Part shown: positions 16,431 to 25,994 of the stretch, one piece after another
Layout of the letters: each line of letters begins with the position of its first letter
Numbering within the stretch: position 1 is the first letter of the stretch
NCBI RefSeq assembly: GCF_023612255.1
Contig: NZ_CP063231.1
Span: forward strand, 2,834,001-2,898,000
Origin: Luteibacter flocculans
GTDB lineage: Bacteria; Pseudomonadota; Gammaproteobacteria; Xanthomonadales; Rhodanobacteraceae
Direction of reading: 5' to 3'
DNA length: 64,000 nucleotides
The notes under the pieces: model-generated
The model's database searches: none
Seen by the model: only the letters and a program-made list of their open reading frames with translations
What the model was told of the DNA's origin: nothing
Translations under genes and position numbers: made by a program

Positions 16431-17849
16431 ATGTATTCCATCGACCAGATCTACATCGACGGCGCCTTCGTTCCGCCCCATGGCAGCGAGCGCTTCCCGC
16501 TTCACAGCCCTGCGACCGAAGCAGTGATCGGCACCGTACGCCTGGGCGACGAGGAAGATGCCCGTCGGGCCATTGCCGCGGCCAAGCGTGCGTTTCCCGC
16601 GTTTTCCCGCACGTCCGTCGACGAGCGCATCGCCCTGCTCCAACGCATGCACGACGCCGTGGCGGCGCGCGAGGACGAGCTCTTCGCCGCGATCGTCGAA
16701 GAATACGGCGCTCCCTCATCGCGCAGTCGCTGGATGGCTGCGCACGCCGCCAACGTGTTTCGCGATGCCATCGACACCTTGCGCGAGTTCGACTTCGAAC
16801 GGCGTATGGGCAGCGCCACCGTGGTGATGCAGCCGGTGGGCGTCGCTGCGCTCATTACGCCTTGGAACAGCAACGCCGGCTTCATCTGCGGCAAGCTCGC
16901 CGCCGCCATCGCGGCCGGCTGCACGGCGGTGATCAAACCCAGCGAAATGAGCGCACGACAAACCCAGATCGTCACCAAAGCCCTGCACGAGGCAGGCGCA
17001 GCTCCGGGCGTGTTCAACATCGTGACGGGCCGTGGCGATGTGGTCGGCGAGACGTTCGTCACCAGCCCGGACGTCGCGAAGATCTCGTTCACCGGGTCCA
17101 CGGCGGTCGGCAAGGGCATCGTCAGGGCGAGCGCCGAGACGCTGAAGCGCGTGACGCTCGAACTCGGCGGCAAGTCGCCCAGCGTGATCCTCGACGACGC
17201 GGACTTTGCGACCACGGTGCCCCTGGTGATCGCCGCAGGCTTCATGAACAGCGGCCAGGCCTGCATCGCCGGCACGCGCATCCTCGTGCCGCGCTCGCGG
17301 ATGGGCGAGTTCGAGGCACTGGCCAAGGCGGCGGTTGAAGCCACGGTCTCCGGCGACCCGGCCGATCCACGCACCGAGATCGGACCGATGGTCAGTGCCA
17401 AGCAGTGGGAACGCGTGCAGGGCTATATCCGCAAGGGCATCGAGGAAGGCGCCCGACTGCTCGTCGGCGGCGAAGGCCGGCCCGACGGCTACGACCGCGG
17501 CTGGCTCGTGCGCCCCACCGTGTTCACCGACGTGCGTAACGACATGACCATCGCCCGCGACGAGATCTTCGGGCCCGTGCTGTCGATCATTGGCTACGAC
17601 GACGAAGAGGACGCCATCGCGATCGCCAACGACACGGCCTATGGCCTGCAGGCCTATGTGCATTCCACGAACGCAGCACGCGCAGCTCGCGTGGCCGCGC
17701 GCATCGACGCCGGCCGGGTCATGGTCAACACGTTGACCCACGATCCCAAGGCGCCGTTCGGCGGCTTCAAGCAATCCGGCCTCGGCCGCGAATACGGACA
17801 CTTTGGGCTGGAGGCCTATCTGGAGCCGAAGGCGGTGCTGGGGCTCTGA
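16431..17849 (+). CDS. NAD(P)-dependent aldehyde dehydrogenase
   Basis: A 472-residue cytosolic aldehyde dehydrogenase. The nucleotide-binding region (ALITPWNSNAG, AVIKPSEMSA) is followed by the conserved SFTGSTAVGKGI loop. The catalytic residues are Glu244 in LELGGKSP and Cys278 in SGQACIAG, with EIFGPVLSI downstream. The family oxidises aldehydes to acids; the aldehyde used is unknown. Divergence from a LysR regulator suggests inducible expression by a small aromatic or aliphatic compound. The ATG at 16431 gives the usual family N-terminus. Confidence 0.92.
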   Translation: MYSIDQIYIDGAFVPPHGSERFPLHSPATEAVIGTVRLGDEEDARRAIAAAKRAFPAFSRTSVDERIALLQRMHDAVAAREDELFAAIVEEYGAPSSRSRWMAAHAANVFRDAIDTLREFDFERRMGSATVVMQPVGVAALITPWNSNAGFICGKLAAAIAAGCTAVIKPSEMSARQTQIVTKALHEAGAAPGVFNIVTGRGDVVGETFVTSPDVAKISFTGSTAVGKGIVRASAETLKRVTLELGGKSPSVILDDADFATTVPLVIAAGFMNSGQACIAGTRILVPRSRMGEFEALAKAAVEATVSGDPADPRTEIGPMVSAKQWERVQGYIRKGIEEGARLLVGGEGRPDGYDRGWLVRPTVFTDVRNDMTIARDEIFGPVLSIIGYDDEEDAIAIANDTAYGLQAYVHSTNAARAARVAARIDAGRVMVNTLTHDPKAPFGGFKQSGLGREYGHFGLEAYLEPKAVLGL

Positions 17850-17884
17850 TCGAGCTCCTACAACCGGCGTGCGTCTGATAACGT

Positions 17885-17908
17885 CCCCTGGGTCAATCAG
17901 CCCAGGGG
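17885..17908 (+). promoter_or_regulatory. Perfect hairpin overlapping the Shine-Dalgarno of the cyclophilin gene
   Basis: CCCCTGGG (17885-17892) and CCCAGGGG (17901-17908) form a perfect 8-bp stem around an 8-base loop, ending 5 bases before the ATG at 17914. The AGGGG that best serves as ribosome-binding site is inside the 3' arm. It could limit translation or act as a weak attenuator of the upstream transcript; there is no T tract, so it is not a standard terminator. Confidence 0.45.
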
Positions 17909-17913
17909 ATCTC

Positions 17914-18825
17914 ATGCTCGCCCGTACCTGTCTCGCTCTCGCTCTCCTGCTCGCCCTGCCCGCGCTGGCAGACGAAGCGAAGAAATCGCCCACGCCCAAG
18001 GAACTGCTGGCGAAGTCCACGTCGGCCGAATGGCGCACGCCCGATCCGCAGAACCTGGTCTACATGGACCTGCCGCAGGGCCGCGTCGTCATCGAACTGG
18101 CGCAGGACTGGTCGCCGCTGCATGCCGCGAACATCCGCACCCTGATCCGCGAGCATTATTTCGACGGTACGCAGATCATCCGCGTGCAGGACAACTTCGT
18201 CACCCAATGGGGCGACCCCGACGGGGACGACAAGAAAAAGGCGAAGAGCCTCGGCACCGCGAAGGAAACCCTCGCCTCCGAGTTCACCCGCAAGGATGGC
18301 AAGCCCTACCCCTTCACGAAGCTGCAGGACGGCGACGTGTACGCGCCCGAGGTCGGATTCTCGGATGGCTTCCCCGTGGCACGTGACGGCAAGGGCGAGG
18401 CGTGGATCACACACTGCTACGGCACGGTGGGCGTCGCTCGCGACACCGGTGCCGAGAGCGGCAACGGCAGCTCGCTCTACGCAATCATCGGCCAGGCGCC
18501 GCGCAATCTCGACCGCAACCTGGCCGTGGCCGGTAAGGTCATCAAGGGCATGGAGATTCTTTCGGCCTACCCGCGCGGCGGCGAGCCCATGGGGTTCTAC
18601 GACAAGCCCGGGCAACGCGTGATGATCAAGAGCGTGCGCCTCGCGGCGGACGTACCGGAAGCCGAACGCACGCCGATTCAAGTGCTGCGCACGGACAGCA
18701 AGACCTTCGCCGCCGTGGTCGAAGCCAAGCGCAACCGCCGCGACGACTTCTACACCCGCCCCGCCGGCAAGATCGACCTGTGCAACATCAGCGTGCCGGT
18801 GCGCGACCCGTCGAAGAAACCCTGA
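17914..18825 (+). CDS. Cyclophilin-type peptidyl-prolyl isomerase, exported
   Basis: A 303-residue protein with a signal peptide (MLARTCLALALLLALPALA) and therefore probably periplasmic. The cyclophilin core runs from about residue 47: VYMDLPQGRVVIELAQDWSP, then REHYFDGTQIIRVQDNFVTQWGDP, the catalytic-face segment. A YGTVGVARD segment follows, with SGNGSSLYAIIGQAPRNLDRNLAVAGKVIKGMEIL. The loops are longer than in PpiA and the C-terminus has an extra 70 residues. It assists folding by proline cis/trans isomerisation. The ribosome-binding site lies in a hairpin. Confidence 0.9.
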   Translation: MLARTCLALALLLALPALADEAKKSPTPKELLAKSTSAEWRTPDPQNLVYMDLPQGRVVIELAQDWSPLHAANIRTLIREHYFDGTQIIRVQDNFVTQWGDPDGDDKKKAKSLGTAKETLASEFTRKDGKPYPFTKLQDGDVYAPEVGFSDGFPVARDGKGEAWITHCYGTVGVARDTGAESGNGSSLYAIIGQAPRNLDRNLAVAGKVIKGMEILSAYPRGGEPMGFYDKPGQRVMIKSVRLAADVPEAERTPIQVLRTDSKTFAAVVEAKRNRRDDFYTRPAGKIDLCNISVPVRDPSKKP

Positions 18826-18833
18826 TACCTGTT

Positions 18834-19240
18834 GTGGGAGCCGCTATAGCGGCGAGAAGCCAAAGCACCGGTGGGAACCAGCCTGCTGGCGATAACCCAA
18901 AGCACCGATGGGAGCCAGCCTGCTGCGATAACCCAAAGCACCGGTGGGAGCCAGCCTGCTGCGATAACCCAAAGCACCGGTGGGAGCCAGCCTGCTGCGA
19001 TAACCCAAAGCACCGGTGGGAGCCAGCCTGCTGCGATAACCCAAAGCACCGGTGGGAGCCAGCCTGCTGCGATAACCCAAAGCACCGGTGGGAGCCAGCC
19101 TGCTGCGATAACCCAAAGCACCGGTGGGAGCCAGCCTGCTGGCGATAAGCCAACGGAGCGATGAAGCGGCCGAGGCAGATTCCCATCGCCACCAGGGTGG
19201 CCGCCACCGGCAAGCTCCATCACCACCAGGCTGCCCCCCC
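18834..19240. repeat. Tandem REP array, 36-bp period
   Basis: One CCGCTATAGCGG-type REP at 18834 is followed by eight head-to-tail copies of the CCAGCCTGCTGG type starting at 18871, 18908, 18944, 18980, 19016, 19052, 19088 and 19124. Copies are spaced 37 bp once and then 36 bp exactly. The six middle copies have lost one G in the palindrome (CTGCTGCG instead of CTGCTGGCG), while the first and last keep it. Each unit carries the same linker, ATAACCCAAAGCACCG. A degenerate inverted copy lies after the array at about 19180-19215. The region fills the gap between the cyclophilin and DUF3014 genes. Confidence 0.9.
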
Positions 19241-19244
19241 ACAA

Positions 19245-20102
19245 CTACCCCGCCGACGCGCCAGCAGGCGCGTCGGCCACAATCGCCTCGCGCAGCGCCC
19301 GCAGCTTCTCCTTCAACTTCGCCTCATTGGCCTTGCCCACGCGAATCATGAATTTCTGTCCCACCGACAGTTGCTCATAGTTCGGATCCGCGTACACGTA
19401 ACCCACTTTCGCTGGAATCAATTGCAGCTTGCCTTTGGGCTCCGGCGCGGCCAGCAAGTGATCGATCACCTCGATCAGGCGGTCGTTGAAATACCCGCCC
19501 GTGCCGAGGTCGCGGTAGGCCTGCTGAAACAGCGGGTAGTTGCGCTTGTACCAGGCTGCGGCGGCCTGCGGGTTCATCCGGTCCGCCACGTACATGTAGG
19601 TTTCATAGCGATCGAGGTTCTTCTTCGACTCGACGAACATGCCGTCGTCGGACTGCACCTGGAAACGTCCCGTGGGCGTGCGCAACGGCAGCACGTTCAT
19701 GCCGACCGTCTGCTTCGGCAACGCATCGATGGTGGATACCATGCGCGACACGATGGCGTCCTGGCGCAACAGCGATTTCAGTGCGTCGTCGCTGGTGAGC
19801 GCGAGCAAGCCCGCAAGGATGGCGTCGTCGCTCTGGTCCAGCGCCGGGAGCGATGCGGACCCCGCCGACGCGGGATCGACCGGATGCAGCGGAGCCGGCG
19901 CGTCGTGCCCGATGGGTTGTGAAGCCGCAGCGGTTGATGCGGCCTCCGCGGCCGGCGCCGTCACCGCGTCCCTCGCTTGCTTCTCGCGATACACGAAGAT
20001 GCCAACGGCGACGGCAATCGCCACGACCAGCAAACCTGCGACCCATTTCGAACCCGACGACTGACTGCTCAACGTACCGCTCCCGCAACGACCAAGGCCC
20101 AT
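19245..20102 (-). CDS. DUF3014 domain-containing membrane-anchored protein
   Basis: A 285-residue protein with a short N-terminus, one membrane helix (VAGLLVVAIAVAVGIFVY, about 21-38), an Ala/Pro-rich linker and a C-terminal globular domain of about 200 residues (PALDQSDDAILAGLLAL through QLSVGQKFMIRVGKANEAKLKEKL) that matches DUF3014. Function is not known. The last codons form a perfect 11-bp hairpin (GCCGACGCGCC / GGCGCGTCGGC, 19252-19277) without a T run. It is divergent from the ubiquitin-like gene across a 234-bp gap, which is visibly richer in A and T and holds no further gene that I can support. Confidence 0.82.
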   Translation of the reverse strand: MGLGRCGSGTLSSQSSGSKWVAGLLVVAIAVAVGIFVYREKQARDAVTAPAAEAASTAAASQPIGHDAPAPLHPVDPASAGSASLPALDQSDDAILAGLLALTSDDALKSLLRQDAIVSRMVSTIDALPKQTVGMNVLPLRTPTGRFQVQSDDGMFVESKKNLDRYETYMYVADRMNPQAAAAWYKRNYPLFQQAYRDLGTGGYFNDRLIEVIDHLLAAPEPKGKLQLIPAKVGYVYADPNYEQLSVGQKFMIRVGKANEAKLKEKLRALREAIVADAPAGASAG

Positions 20103-20336
20103 GGGACTACGAATGGCGGGTCGAGTTCAAACTAACGCCGATGCAGCGCCCTCATGGGACCACACAATAATGGCCACGACGGGTACGTTGAGAGGGCAAA
20201 TCAGCGTTTGGCGTAGCCGAATCGCAAGTTTGCTTCCAGCTCCCGTAAATATCGGCGGTGCAAGTTGCGCATTACCGTGAATTAACGGGTTCCGGCGTAA
20301 GAAGAACACACGGAGCACTACCACAAGGAAGCGAAA

Positions 20337-20564
20337 ATGAATATCTACATCAAAACGATAACGGGTAAGACCTTTACGCTGGAGGTCGAACCGAGCGACA
20401 CCATCGAAAATGTCAAACAAAAGATAGCCGATCAGGAAGGTATCGCTGTACCAATTCAGCGGCTCATCTTCGCCGGGAAACTACTCGAAGACCTTCGCAC
20501 CCTCGCCGACTACAACATCCAGAAAGAAAGCACCCTACACCTAGTCCAGCGCCTAGAGAGTTGA
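20337..20564 (+). CDS. Ubiquitin homologue lacking the C-terminal Gly-Gly
   Basis: A 75-residue protein aligning without gaps to eukaryotic ubiquitin. Against human ubiquitin (recalled sequence) I count 57 of 75 identical positions, 76%. Identical blocks are [14 protein letters not shown] (14-27), QRLIFAGK (41-48) and [13 protein letters not shown] (58-70). Lys6, 11, 27, 29, 48 and 63 are kept and Lys33 is Gln. The Ile44 patch (Ile44, His68, Val70) is kept with Leu8 as Ile. The tail is VQRLES instead of VLRLRGG, so the diglycine needed for conjugation is absent. There is no signal peptide. AAGGAA lies 6 bases before the ATG. GC is 49% (112/228 by hand), well below its neighbours, which together with the eukaryote-like sequence suggests acquisition by transfer. 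The last 12 bases overlap the convergent M50-like gene. No E1, E2 or JAMM peptidase gene is nearby. Confidence 0.93.
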
Positions 20565-21668
20565 GACATTCCTACCAAAGAGCGTCTCCAGCAAGAGGCG
20601 CTCTCTTTGCGGCGACGCGCGTTCGATGCTCAACGCGGCTCGACGCAGGGTCTCACGCACCATCGCTTCGGTTTTTCGGGCGTCTCCCTCCAGCCAGGCA
20701 CGAAATGCGCCGCAACGCACCGGAAGGCACTCGTGTGCCCAACGCACCTGTCGCAGCATTTTACTATCCGGCAAGAGCGAGGCATCCCGATCCGCGGCAG
20801 CGCGCGAAAAAGCGATTTCCGCACGAACGTACAGGATCAGCTCCGCATAGGCTGAGCGAAGTGCGGCGTCCTTTGGCACGGCGGCGTCCAGAGCATGGCC
20901 CAGCGCGGCTGCCTCGCGCCATTCGCCGCGCTCTTGATGCAGGACGACCGCGCAATACACGGCATGCACCTCGCTCAGCCTGGCAAAGGCCGCCGCCTCA
21001 TCCTGTGGCAAGGCGGACAATAGCGTGCCCGAGATCAGCCGCGACAAGGCTCGCATACCGAGCAGGTCCGACTCGGCGGGCGGATGGCGCCACCAGCGCC
21101 ACGCGATGATGCCGTCGGTGTCCACCACGGCTTTTACGGGAAGCAGATTCACCAACGGCACCGCGCATACGCACAGCGCCACGCATAGCGCGATGGCGGC
21201 CTCGTCGCTGCGCACGAAAGCCAGCGCCGCGCCAAGTATCGACAGCAGCAGCACGTTCGCCGCAACACCGCCCAGGGCAAAGACGATGAAGGCGCGACGC
21301 CATGGCCTGTCCACGGCCGGCAGGGCCATTACGCTGCCCGTCGGGGTCTTGTGCGCGTAGCGTTTGATCCGGCATCGCCAGCCACGTTGCAGCGGCTCGA
21401 TCTCCAGCCACCACAGACGCACGCGCAACACCTGCATGCCGAGCTGTCGCGCCGCGACGTAATGGCCGATTTCATGCACCACGATCGAGACGACGAACGC
21501 GCCGATGAGCAACAGCAAGGGATGAAACCGGTGTAGCAACCCAAACCCGAGCAGCGCGACGATGAAGGCGAAGATCATGCCCAGATAGAGGTACATCACC
21601 ACCGTAAAGAACAGCCGCCACGCCGCTGATGGCTGCCACATCGACACCGCCAAACCGTCCTCCGCCAT
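20553..21668 (-). CDS. M50-type (site-2-protease-like) membrane metallopeptidase
   Basis: A 371-residue protein. Several hydrophobic segments occupy residues about 18-70 and 125-180. The zinc motif is His65-Glu66-x-x-His69 ([13 protein letters not shown]). The third ligand motif is NLLP (174-177) followed by VDTDG (Asp185), as in the M50 family. Residues 200-371 form a soluble, helix-rich, possibly TPR-like region. Family members cut substrates within the membrane. It lies last in a minus-strand run after icmF and the SGNH-like gene (62 bp gap), and its 3' end overlaps the convergent ubiquitin-like gene by 12 bp. The substrate is unknown. Confidence 0.8.
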
Positions 21669-21730
21669 ACATCCGCCCCTGCTTGCCCGGCCGTTAGCCT
21701 AGCAGCACGGATTGAGCGCAAGCGCGTGCG

Positions 21731-22495
21731 TCAGCCGCCCACCAGCACCGGCACGGCATCCTCGGTGACGAGACAGGTCCGCGGCGTCGCCGAGGTATCG
21801 ATGTGCAACACGCCGTCCGGCTTCGGCGCATGATAGTGCAGCTCGCCGGCTACGCACGGCGCGGCCGCAGGCATCACATGAAAGATGGCACGCCATGTGC
21901 GCAACGCCATCATGGCCGTGGTGGCATAACCGGGATGCTGACCGTCCGCATGTGTCCACGCCATCTCAGGACGCGTCAACATGAGCTTCCGGCGCGGCTT
22001 GGCGATCTCGATGTACGTAGCGTCGCTCGCCTTGGCAATGGCCCTCTCCCCAAATTCCAGCGCTTCGTTCGTCTCTTTGCTGGATTGCCAGGTGCCTAGA
22101 TAGAACACGCGTGCACCGCTGGCGCGCGCTCTGCGCGACAGCTCTCTGGCCGACTGCATCGCCGGCAAGCTGGCGGCATTGTTCTGCTGGCAGGCTGATG
22201 GGCAGAAGGCTTCGCCACCCCGTTCCTGAAGGACCACGTCCGTGTAGCCGCCCTCGGCCAGCGCGCGACTGACCGACGGATTGCCCGTTGCATCCGCCAG
22301 CGTGGCGCCGCCACTGGCAATCATGTCGACCTGGATATGTGTCCCCGGTAGCGCAAGAGAGGCAAACGCATTGGGCAGGTCGTTGACATAGGTGAGGCTG
22401 TTGCCGATGAAGAGCACGCGACGTACCTGCTCATCGGCCCACGCCGTAGAAACCGTCAACGCGGCCAGGAGAACGACGAGCAAACGTCGACTCAC
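21731..22495 (-). CDS. SGNH/GDSL-like exported hydrolase-like protein
   Basis: A 254-residue protein. The GTG start at 22495 puts a signal peptide (SRRLLVVLLAALTVSTAWA) at the N-terminus. The mature part opens with RRVLFIGNSLTYVNDLP, resembling SGNH block I (GNSLT for GDSLS), and has DVVLQERGGEAF and HADGQHPGYA, resembling the block V Asp/His. The hydrolase fold is likely but activity is not proven. It follows icmF by 46 bp on the same strand. Confidence 0.7.
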   Translation of the reverse strand: MSRRLLVVLLAALTVSTAWADEQVRRVLFIGNSLTYVNDLPNAFASLALPGTHIQVDMIASGGATLADATGNPSVSRALAEGGYTDVVLQERGGEAFCPSACQQNNAASLPAMQSARELSRRARASGARVFYLGTWQSSKETNEALEFGERAIAKASDATYIEIAKPRRKLMLTRPEMAWTHADGQHPGYATTAMMALRTWRAIFHVMPAAAPCVAGELHYHAPKPDGVLHIDTSATPRTCLVTEDAVPVLVGG

Positions 22496-22541
22496 GCGAA
22501 CGCCTGAACAGGGTTCCCGCTCGAAGCGGTAACCCTGACCA

Positions 22542-25500
22542 TCACATGTTGCGCCGATACTCGCCACCCACGTCGTAGAGCGCGTGGCTGATCTGGCCGA
22601 GCGAGTTGTTCTGCACGGCTTCCATCAGTTGCTCGAAGACGTTGCGGCGGTCGCGTGCGGTTTTCTGCAGGACCTTGAGGCTCTCGGGAGCCAGGCTGTT
22701 GCGGGCCTTGCCGAAGAGCCGCACGTTGTCGATCTGCTGGCCCTTTTCTTCCTCGGTGGAACGGATCAGCTCGATTTCCGTGGCGATCTCGCCGCCATGG
22801 TCCTTCGGCAGGAACGTGTTCACGCCGATGAGCGGCAGCGTACCGTCGTGCTTCAGGTGTTCGTAGTACATCGATTCTTCCTGAATCTTGCCGCGCTGGT
22901 ACATCGTGTCCATCGCGCCGAGCACGCCGCCGCGCTCGCTGATCGCCTCGAACTCCTTGTACACGGCCTCTTCCACGAGGTCGGTCAGTTCGTCGACGAC
23001 GAAGCTGCCCTGCCACGGGTTCTCGTTGAAGTTGAGGCCCAGCTCGCGATTGATGATGAGCTGAATCGCCACCGCGCGACGCACGCTTTCCTCGGTCGGC
23101 GTGGTGATCGCCTCGTCGTATGCGTTGGTATGCAGGCTGTTGCAGTTGTCGAACAGCGCGTAAAGCGCCTGCAAGGTCGTGCGGATGTCATTGAACTGGA
23201 TCTCCTGCGCGTGCAGCGAGCGGCCCGACGTCTGGATGTGGTACTTCAGCATCTGGCTGCGCGCACTGGCGCCGTAGCGCTCGCGCATGGCGCGGGCCCA
23301 GATGCGGCGGGCCACACGGCCGATCACCGTGTATTCCGGGTCCATGCCGTTGGAGAAGAAGAACGACAGGTTGGGCGCGAAGTCGTCGATCTTCATGCCA
23401 CGTGCGAGGTAGTACTCGACGATGGTGAAGCCGTTCGACAAGGTGAAGGCCAACTGGCTGATCGGGTTCGCGCCGGCTTCGGCGATGTGGTAGCCGGAGA
23501 TCGACACCGAGTAGAAATTGCGCACCTTGTGATCGACGAAGTACTGCTGGATGTCGCCCATCATGCGCAAGGCGAATTCAGTGCTGAAGATGCAGGTGTT
23601 CTGCGCCTGATCTTCCTTCAGGATGTCCGCCTGCACCGTGCCGCGCACGGTAGCGAGCGTGTACGCCTTGATCCGTGCATAGGTCTCGGCATCGACCACT
23701 TCCGCGCCCGACACGCCGAGCAGGCCAAGACCGAGGCCATCGTTACCCTTAGGCAGCTCACCGTGATAGCGCGGACGGTTGCCGTCCGGATACAGCTCGG
23801 CGATGCGCTTGTTGGCCGCTTCCCAGCGCGAGGCGTCCTCGTTGAGGTACTTCTCGACGTTCTGGTCGATCGCCGTGTTCATGAACATGGCGAGGATGAT
23901 CGGCGCGGGGCCGTTGATCGTCATCGACACGGAGGTCGTCGGTGCGGACAGATCGAAGCCGGAGTACAGCTTCTTCATGTCGTCAAGCGTCGCGATGGAG
24001 ACGCCCGAATTACCGATCTTGCCGTAGATGTCGGGGCGCGGCGCCGGATCTTCGCCGTAGAGCGTGACCGAGTCGAATGCCGTGGACAGGCGTGCTGCGC
24101 CACCGCCAAGCGACAAGTAATGGAAACGGCGATTGGTCCGTTCAGGTGTGCCCTCGCCCGCGAACATGCGGGTGGGATCCTCGCCTGCGCGACGATACGG
24201 AAACACGCCGCCGGTGTACGGGTAATGCCCCGGAAGGTTCTCACGCATCAGGAACGACAGCAGGTCGCCCCAATCCTTCGTCTTCGGCGGCGACACCTTG
24301 GGAATCTTCTGGTGGCTCAGCGATTCGCGGTAGTTCTCCACGCGGATCACCTTGTCACGCACCTGATACTCGTTGAATTCGGCGGTGACCGATTCGAAGC
24401 GTGCCGGCCACTCGCGCAGCAGGCCGATGGCCTCGCTCGACAGCTCGCGCACCGCTTCGTTGTAGCGCTGGCGCAAGGTCGCCAGCGAGCGGTCGCCGCT
24501 GACGGTAAGCAGGCCGTGATCGTAGAGATCGAGCGCACGCGGCAGCGCCTCGTCGCCGATGTCCTTCAGCGACTCGTAGTAATGCTGCGCTTTGCTGGCC
24601 GCCTCGGCCTGCTTCGCGATGGCGCCGTTGACGCCACGCCCCTGCTCCGCGATCTCGGCCAGGTAGCGCACGCGCTGACCGGGAATCAGCACCGTGGCCC
24701 GCGGCTCGCGCAGGGTCGTATCGACATCGGGCGTCCACGCCGACTCTGGCAAGGCGAGCTTGTCGCGCAGCAGACGGCACAGGTTGGCGAACATCCAGGT
24801 CACACCCGGATCGTTGAACTGACTCGCGATCGTCGGGTACACCGGCACGGCGTCGTCGGCGAGCTGGAACGCCACGCGGTTGCGCTTCCACTGCTTGCGC
24901 ACGTCGCGCAGGGCATCTTCGGCGCCGCGTTTGTCGAACTTGTTGAGGACCACCAGCTCGGCGAAGTCGAGCATATCGATCTTTTCGAGCTGGCTCGCCG
25001 CGCCGTACTCGCTGGTCATCACGTAGACCGGGAAATCGACGAGGTCCACGATCTCCGAATCGCTCTGACCGATACCCGCGGTCTCCACGATCACCAGGTC
25101 ATAGGCCTGTGACTTGAGGAAATCGATGCAGTCGTGCAGCACGACGGACGTGGCGGCATGCTGGCGGCGCGTCGCCATCGAACGCATGTAGACGCGAGGG
25201 CTACGCAGCGAGTTCATGCGGATGCGGTCGCCCAGTAGCGCACCGCCGCTGCGGCGGCGCGTCGGATCGACGGCGAGCACGGCAATGCGCATCTGCGGGA
25301 ACGCCTGCAGGAAGCGCAGCAGCAGTTCGTCCACGACCGACGACTTGCCCGCACCGCCGGTACCGGTGAGACCCAGCACGGGCGTCTTGCCACCGGCGAG
25401 CTTCCACGCCTTGCGCAGACGGGCCAGTTCCTCGTCGCCGAGGCGATCTTCCTCGATAGCGGAGAGCATCGCGCCGATGGATATCTCGTCTTCCACCGAA

Positions 25501-25994
25501 GCGGTCGGTGGCGCGACAGTGACACGACGGCCTGCGGCTTCGCGCGTGCGGGCCATCACGTCTTCGATCATTTCCGTCAGACCGAGCTTCATGCCGTCGT
25601 TCGGGTGGTAGATGCGCTCCACCCCGTACGCCTGCAGTTCCTTGATTTCTTCCGGCGTGATCGTGCCGCCACCGCCGCCGAAAACGCGCACATGGCTCGC
25701 GCCGCGCTCGCGCAGCATGTCCACCATGTACTTGAAGTACTCGACATGGCCGCCCTGGTACGACGACAACGCGATGGCATCGGCGTCCTCTTGGAGGGCT
25801 GCACGCACCACGTCTTCCACCGAGCGGTTGTGGCCGAGGTGAATCACCTCTGCGCCCTGGCTCTGAATGATCCGCCGCATGATGTTGATGGCGGCATCGT
25901 GCCCGTCGAACAGGCTCGCCGCCGTGACAAAGCGCAGCGGCGTTGCCTCCGCGTCCGTGCTGCTGGCGGGAATGTGCTTGGGCTGCGAACTCAT
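22542..25994 (-). CDS. icmF: Fused isobutyryl-CoA mutase / GTPase IcmF
   Basis: A 1150-residue cytosolic adenosylcobalamin enzyme that interconverts isobutyryl-CoA and n-butyryl-CoA, with its own chaperone GTPase. The domain order is diagnostic. A B12-binding domain comes first, with the lower-ligand His32 in [13 protein letters not shown] MeaB-like G domain follows, with P-loop GTGGAGKSS at 211-219 and [14 protein letters not shown]. The large mutase domain comes last ([34 protein letters not shown]). No small mutase subunit is needed. It fits branched-chain amino-acid or fatty-acid carbon use, together with leucine dehydrogenase and isovaleryl-CoA dehydrogenase elsewhere in the window. It is slightly longer than typical because of linkers. 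Confidence 0.93.

Follow-up and report, generated by a model that had tools for sequence, protein, structure and literature searches.

Ubiquitin is taught as a eukaryotic protein, and the literature searched, as far as titles and excerpts go, describes a single bacterial protein this close to it: BfUbb, a ubiquitin that Bacteroides fragilis secretes (PMC3352274, PMC5705921; structure 8hm2). According to excerpts of these reports, BfUbb has a signal sequence as well as a cysteine at its C-terminus, and its processing site aligns with ubiquitin residue 1 (PMC5705921). We analysed a 64,000-nucleotide stretch of the chromosome of Luteibacter flocculans (NZ_CP063231.1, positions 2,834,001 to 2,898,000; hereafter the window), a species represented by one strain in this analysis, and found in it a ubiquitin gene, here called ubl (Table 1). 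The ubl product is a variant of the kind typified by BfUbb. In contrast to BfUbb, it has neither signal sequence nor C-terminal cysteine, and it is nearer to human ubiquitin (76% identity) than to the BfUbb chain (58%). Our leading interpretation, held tentatively and derived from sequence, is that ubl is a horizontally acquired, diverged, non-conjugatable bacterial ubiquitin that would remain in the cytosol and bind a protein of its own cell non-covalently.

The initial annotation had described the product of this bacterial gene as a near-eukaryotic ubiquitin lacking the diglycine tail, and this description held. The ubl product matched the Pfam ubiquitin family PF00240 at E=5.1e-28 and 97.1 bits, against a curated cut-off of 25.4, and the match is therefore not due to chance. 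Its predicted structure was a confident beta-grasp model, the fold of that family. Alignment returned the annotated count of 57 gap-free identities over 75 positions with human ubiquitin, chains of which phmmer aligned with ubl residues 1-74. Six of the seven lysines (K6, K11, K27, K29, K48 and K63) are retained, as had been claimed. The Ile44 patch, which we take to comprise residues 8, 44, 68 and 70, had also been called conserved; I44, H68 and V70 are, but position 8 is not, so that this claim is close to correct. The protein thus shares the fold and most of the sequence of eukaryotic ubiquitin and differs from it in K33 (now Q), F4Y, L8I, residues 37-40, G53 and L71, as well as in its tail. 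Residues 37-40, G53 and L71 presumably sit near deubiquitinase and E1 contacts.

The ubl reading frame is intact and ends in QRLES and a stop codon. Because this tail lacks the diglycine of a conjugatable ubiquitin, E1-type conjugation of ubl is not expected. The protein contains no cysteine anywhere, and so none at its C-terminus. No hydrophobic stretch was present at the N-terminus, and an in-frame stop 12 codons 5' of the ATG excludes an N-terminal signal peptide, in agreement with the annotation; in the six frames of 20100-20336, no hidden signal peptide was seen by eye. Two further annotated features were borne out, namely a likely ribosome-binding site (AAGGAAG, ending 5 bases before the ATG) and a GC content of 49% in a GC-rich region. 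The measured value for ubl was 49.3%, with a third-position GC (GC3) of 0.63, versus 64-68% and 0.74-0.85 in six neighbouring open reading frames. Across the 64 kb, 7 of 2551 windows of 225 bases, including those overlapping ubl, were as GC-poor. ubl is present once in the complete 4.3-Mb chromosome, and no second ubiquitin-family gene was found in the genome. Eukaryotic contamination was considered and is unlikely, since the genome is complete in one contig (completeness 100, contamination 0.01) and ubl lies between conserved genus genes.

We examined the genome for routes of export and for conjugation machinery. The type VI secretion system (T6SS) sheath family (VipB/TssC) gave no match, and the match to the type III secretion system (T3SS) hrcV family scored 611 bits against a cut-off of 692 and is probably the flagellar homologue FlhA; two VirB4 genes exceeded their cut-off, which leaves a small chance of delivery. 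Since a signal is absent and no fitting secretion route was found, ubl is probably cytosolic. For conjugation machinery, the genome-wide search covered JAB and gave a Prok-JAB match below cut-off only, and Pfam matches of E1, E2 or JAB type were absent from the eight neighbouring open reading frames scanned. ubl may act by binding non-covalently, with the conserved sheet face around I8/I44/H68/V70 as its contact surface, and its partner would be a protein of the bacterium itself; a bacterial target is more likely than a host target. If this is true, ubiquitin is at work in a bacterium without a ubiquitin system, and knowing what this small soluble protein binds would reveal a use of ubiquitin outside that system.

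Ubiquitin genes were found in nine of 233 genomes of the family Rhodanobacteraceae. Two of the nine, the genome of the window (G000) and a second member of the genus (G005), encode neither an export signal nor a partner. The other seven carry a signal-peptide-like stretch, judged by eye, that ends just before Met1. Upstream of each of the seven, on the same strand, lies a gene for a protein of ~370 residues with an export-like N-terminus, 120-207 bases separating its last matched base from Met1. This partner has weak NHL/DUF4394 similarity below cut-off, from which alone we call it propeller-like. At E<=1e-15 it occurred in 7 of the 233 genomes, exactly those with an exported ubiquitin; one of these, G599, also encodes another copy that is 38% identical. 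The two-gene units lie at L087:5377-6850 and in L157, L158, L159, L160, L088 and L089. The G000 genome contained no propeller-like partner at E<=1e-15, and a partner remnant beside ubl was sought and rejected (best match E=0.95). ubl resembles the exported ubiquitins of Dyella sp. OK004, D. acidiphila, Dyella sp. ASV24 and the four others in being a single ubiquitin domain of patchy presence, and identity was 65-77% in the six that were measured out of these seven. In contrast, the exported seven have the Met1-ending stretch, and beside each lies an apparently exported partner that was confined to these seven; ubl has neither.

Relatives extend well beyond the family. A scan of bacteria and archaea, with one genome per species, gave at least 594 pattern matches, 357 of them confirmed among the matches listed, and the best 80 (L006-L085) were kept. 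A hydrophobic stretch, called by a simple hydropathy rule rather than SignalP, was present within the 40 residues before Met1 in 71 of these 80, with alanine at -1 in 62 of the 71; BfUbb is processed at a corresponding place. The passengers measured 73 to 1662 residues from Met1. Apparently exported proteins that begin, once mature, with a ubiquitin domain are spread over many bacterial phyla and reach an archaeal bin (L008), and many of them run on into surface proteins. Nine of these, selected from the 80, were scanned: four had an autotransporter beta-domain and one each SdrD_B repeats, an IPTL-CTERM, a weak Ig-like match below cut-off, beta-helix repeats and an FGE-sulfatase domain. Among the best 80, such ubiquitin heads are 71-79% identical to ubl; they are apparently exported and mostly longer than ubiquitin alone, whereas ubl is free-standing and probably cytosolic. 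Many of the 80 come from metagenome bins and may be misbinned, and L015 and L019, two of the nine without a hydrophobic stretch, possibly represent eukaryotic DNA, their ends being LRGG or LRGGI. The ubl observation is real and unusual; the wider family, with its archaeal bins, is more surprising.

These relatives bear on the origin of ubl. The initial annotation had implied an isolated capture from an animal-type host; close relatives in many bacterial phyla, most of them export-like, and a tree that cannot place ubl do not sustain this. Pro19 and Glu24, cited as animal-like, do match animal ubiquitin but are uninformative, as both are the consensus of the bacterial set. Q28 and A57 of ubl occur in 33 and 39 of 82 bacterial and archaeal domains, respectively, and are absent from animal ubiquitin as judged from the human sequence only. 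In the 93-row ubiquitin-domain tree, 58 of 90 inner branches were open, and the donor of ubl was therefore not placed. The nearest DNA among the sequences compared was 73.8% identical (L006). The ubiquitin family (E<=1e-5) was found in two of 369 genomes sampled from the class, one being G000, and is thus rare there. A phage or plasmid origin was considered and rejected: none of 50,697 phage records matched the ubl protein, 3 of 72,556 plasmid records did (the best a Ruminococcus albus ubiquitin-family protein, 78%), and when the surrounding DNA was searched, in plasmids only, the ubiquitin gene alone matched. Viral contigs held nine ubiquitin loci, none nearer to ubl than 74%. Three near-identical "viral" contigs (L145, L146, L147), which are probably bacterial DNA, encode a ubiquitin that combines an export-like stretch with an IPT-type sorting tail at its C-terminus. 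In titles and abstract openings of the open-access literature, we recognised no exported bacterial ubiquitin beyond BfUbb, and no relevant title linked ubiquitin with Luteibacter or Dyella; the parts of related reports seen there deal with ubiquitin hydrolases (PMC4378268), JAB toxins (PMC3482391) and extracellular ubiquitin, with a mention of BfUbb (PMC10892293).

Only G000 and G005 among 23 genus genomes have a ubiquitin gene. We compared the neighbourhood in 22 of them, leaving out G007 (510 contigs). Cyclophilin and DUF3014 genes were present in all 22, adjacent or within ~1.5 kb, twice with an M50-like or other gene between them. A variable stretch follows, and methylmalonyl-CoA mutase lay within the fetched stretch in 15 of the 22. 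No counterpart of the insert that holds ubl was found at that place in the other members compared. The G005 ubiquitin gene lies between cyclophilin and DUF3014; its product, like ubl, has no signal peptide or diglycine and is 43-46% identical to ubl. In the DUF3014 tree, G000 and G005 are not sisters, G005 pairing with G018 at 90/95, and beyond the coding region the two inserts had no significant DNA similarity. That chance would put two such genes next to the same core genes in genomes of 4.3 and 4.5 Mb is unlikely, although no formal calculation was made. More probably, recombination in the flanking core genes exchanges a pool of genes at this site, with ubl part of the accessory pool of one chromosomal neighbourhood. 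ubl would then be a member of the bacterial ubiquitin family that was acquired horizontally, is diverging fast and exists in this genus without export signal, partner gene or diglycine. The broader proposal, that exported bacterial ubiquitins have turned into genus-level, fast-evolving free cytosolic ubiquitins that regulate or inhibit a bacterial protein non-covalently with no ubiquitin system, strikes us as rather doubtful.

Several observations weigh against our leading interpretation of ubl. The interval 20050-20700 yielded neither a sigma-70 promoter-like nor a terminator-like site, and this counts weakly against expression. The ubl branch is long (0.41 changes per column), and its partner in the tree is L034, an exported ubiquitin from Coriobacteriales, at a support of 91/79 that falls short of the tool's mark. 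The tree does not join ubl to the G005 copy, which sits elsewhere on a still longer branch. A31 and the ES end, common to both, may be coincidence. Against five exported family members, pN was 0.19-0.21 and pS saturated at 0.72-0.92, so constraint on ubl's own branch was not isolated. At highly conserved columns the most changed row is the G005 copy, followed by ubl and L075 with 5 substitutions each.

These points lend themselves to a second explanation, in which ubl is a passenger without function: an orphan gene that was acquired, is devoid of signal and partner through loss or from the outset, and drifts without a selected role. The presence of ubiquitin in only two genus genomes, one copy very diverged, the low GC unlike that of the genome, the long branch with changes at conserved columns and the missing promoter-like site all fit it. 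However, the frame is open and has a ribosome-binding site, the core is conserved, and the changes tend to avoid conserved columns (they affect 5 of the 43 that are conserved at >=95% and 10 of the 27 others; p=0.017). Moreover, two species that are not sisters each carry a signal-less copy in this neighbourhood. We consider the passenger explanation unlikely and rank it directly after a bacterial target, which is the most likely of the readings.

The remaining explanations give ubl a target elsewhere or a covalent role. The target of BfUbb is reportedly a prolyl isomerase (Jiang et al., Nat Microbiol), and a cyclophilin gene lies near both genus ubiquitins, with a decayed second cyclophilin 3' end after the one in G005. 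An antibacterial weapon, released through lysis or some unrecognised route to inhibit a protein of a competitor, would have BfUbb as its precedent (PMC5705921, in the part seen) and would fit the divergence and patchy presence; yet ubl lacks the signal peptide and C-terminal cysteine of BfUbb, the T6SS sheath family is absent, and cyclophilin occurs in all 22 neighbourhoods with or without ubiquitin, so that proximity may be incidental. Thirteen solved sequences matched the window cyclophilin at E<=1e-5; no BfUbb complex is named in their labels. We regard the weapon as improbable, and we give even less credence to the annotated host decoy, which would occupy eukaryotic ubiquitin-binding proteins, E1 or deubiquitinases. 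The presumed deubiquitinase and E1 contact regions are altered, no signal is present, the hrcV-family match is below cut-off and probably flagellar, the T6SS sheath family is missing, and neither a second ubiquitin-family gene nor a JAB over cut-off was found; the decoy reading is weak in spite of the 76% identity to human ubiquitin, the kept I44, H68 and V70, the missing diglycine, the type IV machinery indicated by the VirB4 genes and the inhibition of ubiquitination in vitro by recombinant BfUbb noted in an excerpt (PMC3352274). A conjugatable modifier is very improbable: the tail has no diglycine, no JAB match in the genome exceeds its cut-off, and the eight neighbouring open reading frames scanned lack matches of E1, E2 or JAB type. 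E1-E2-JAB systems do exist in bacteria.

Table 1. Features around ubl, in window coordinates.
Feature	Position	Strand	Basis
ubl, 75-aa ubiquitin ending QRLES, without signal peptide or diglycine	20337..20564	+	translation, Pfam, phmmer, fold model
AAGGAAG, likely ribosome-binding site, 5 bases before ubl ATG	20325..20331	+	sequence
~420-base insert, GC 51.7%, holding ubl and upstream region; boundaries approximate	20131..20552	.	genus comparison, composition
DUF3014 gene, core neighbour, 23/23 genus genomes	19245..20102	-	Pfam, genus search
M50-like membrane protein gene, accessory in genus, convergent with ubl, 12-base overlap of 3' ends	20553..21668	-	Pfam, genus comparison
Cyclophilin-type prolyl isomerase gene, probably exported product, 22/22 genus neighbourhoods compared	17803..18825	+	Pfam, genus comparison

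The insert is flanked by the upstream region of the DUF3014 gene, conserved to ~20131, and by the 3' end of the M50-like gene. The DUF3014-to-mutase stretch (20553-22567) is a variable slot in the genus with changing gene combinations. The variable intervals of 12 genomes contained RDD, ExbD/TolR-like, M50-like, SGNH-like and esterase genes in differing mixes, labels that other than M50 we assigned from the sequences. The site that ubl has in the window is taken in G009 by an ExbD-like gene, which adjoins the M50-like gene. The decayed cyclophilin 3' end in G005 (L086:6657-6955) is 79% identical to that genome's own intact copy and 85% to that of G018; ubiquitin and cyclophilin may have travelled together in G005, although the difference between the two values is modest. 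Between the cyclophilin and DUF3014 genes of the window, 18834-19177 holds about nine direct repeats of 36-37 bases, which resemble REP-type elements, and GTAGGAGC stretches occupy the corresponding gap in L118, L120 and L123. Further downstream, 22542-25994 is one gene of 1150 aa that by Pfam fuses B12-binding, MeaB GTPase and methylmalonyl-CoA mutase domains and is presumably of the IcmF type.
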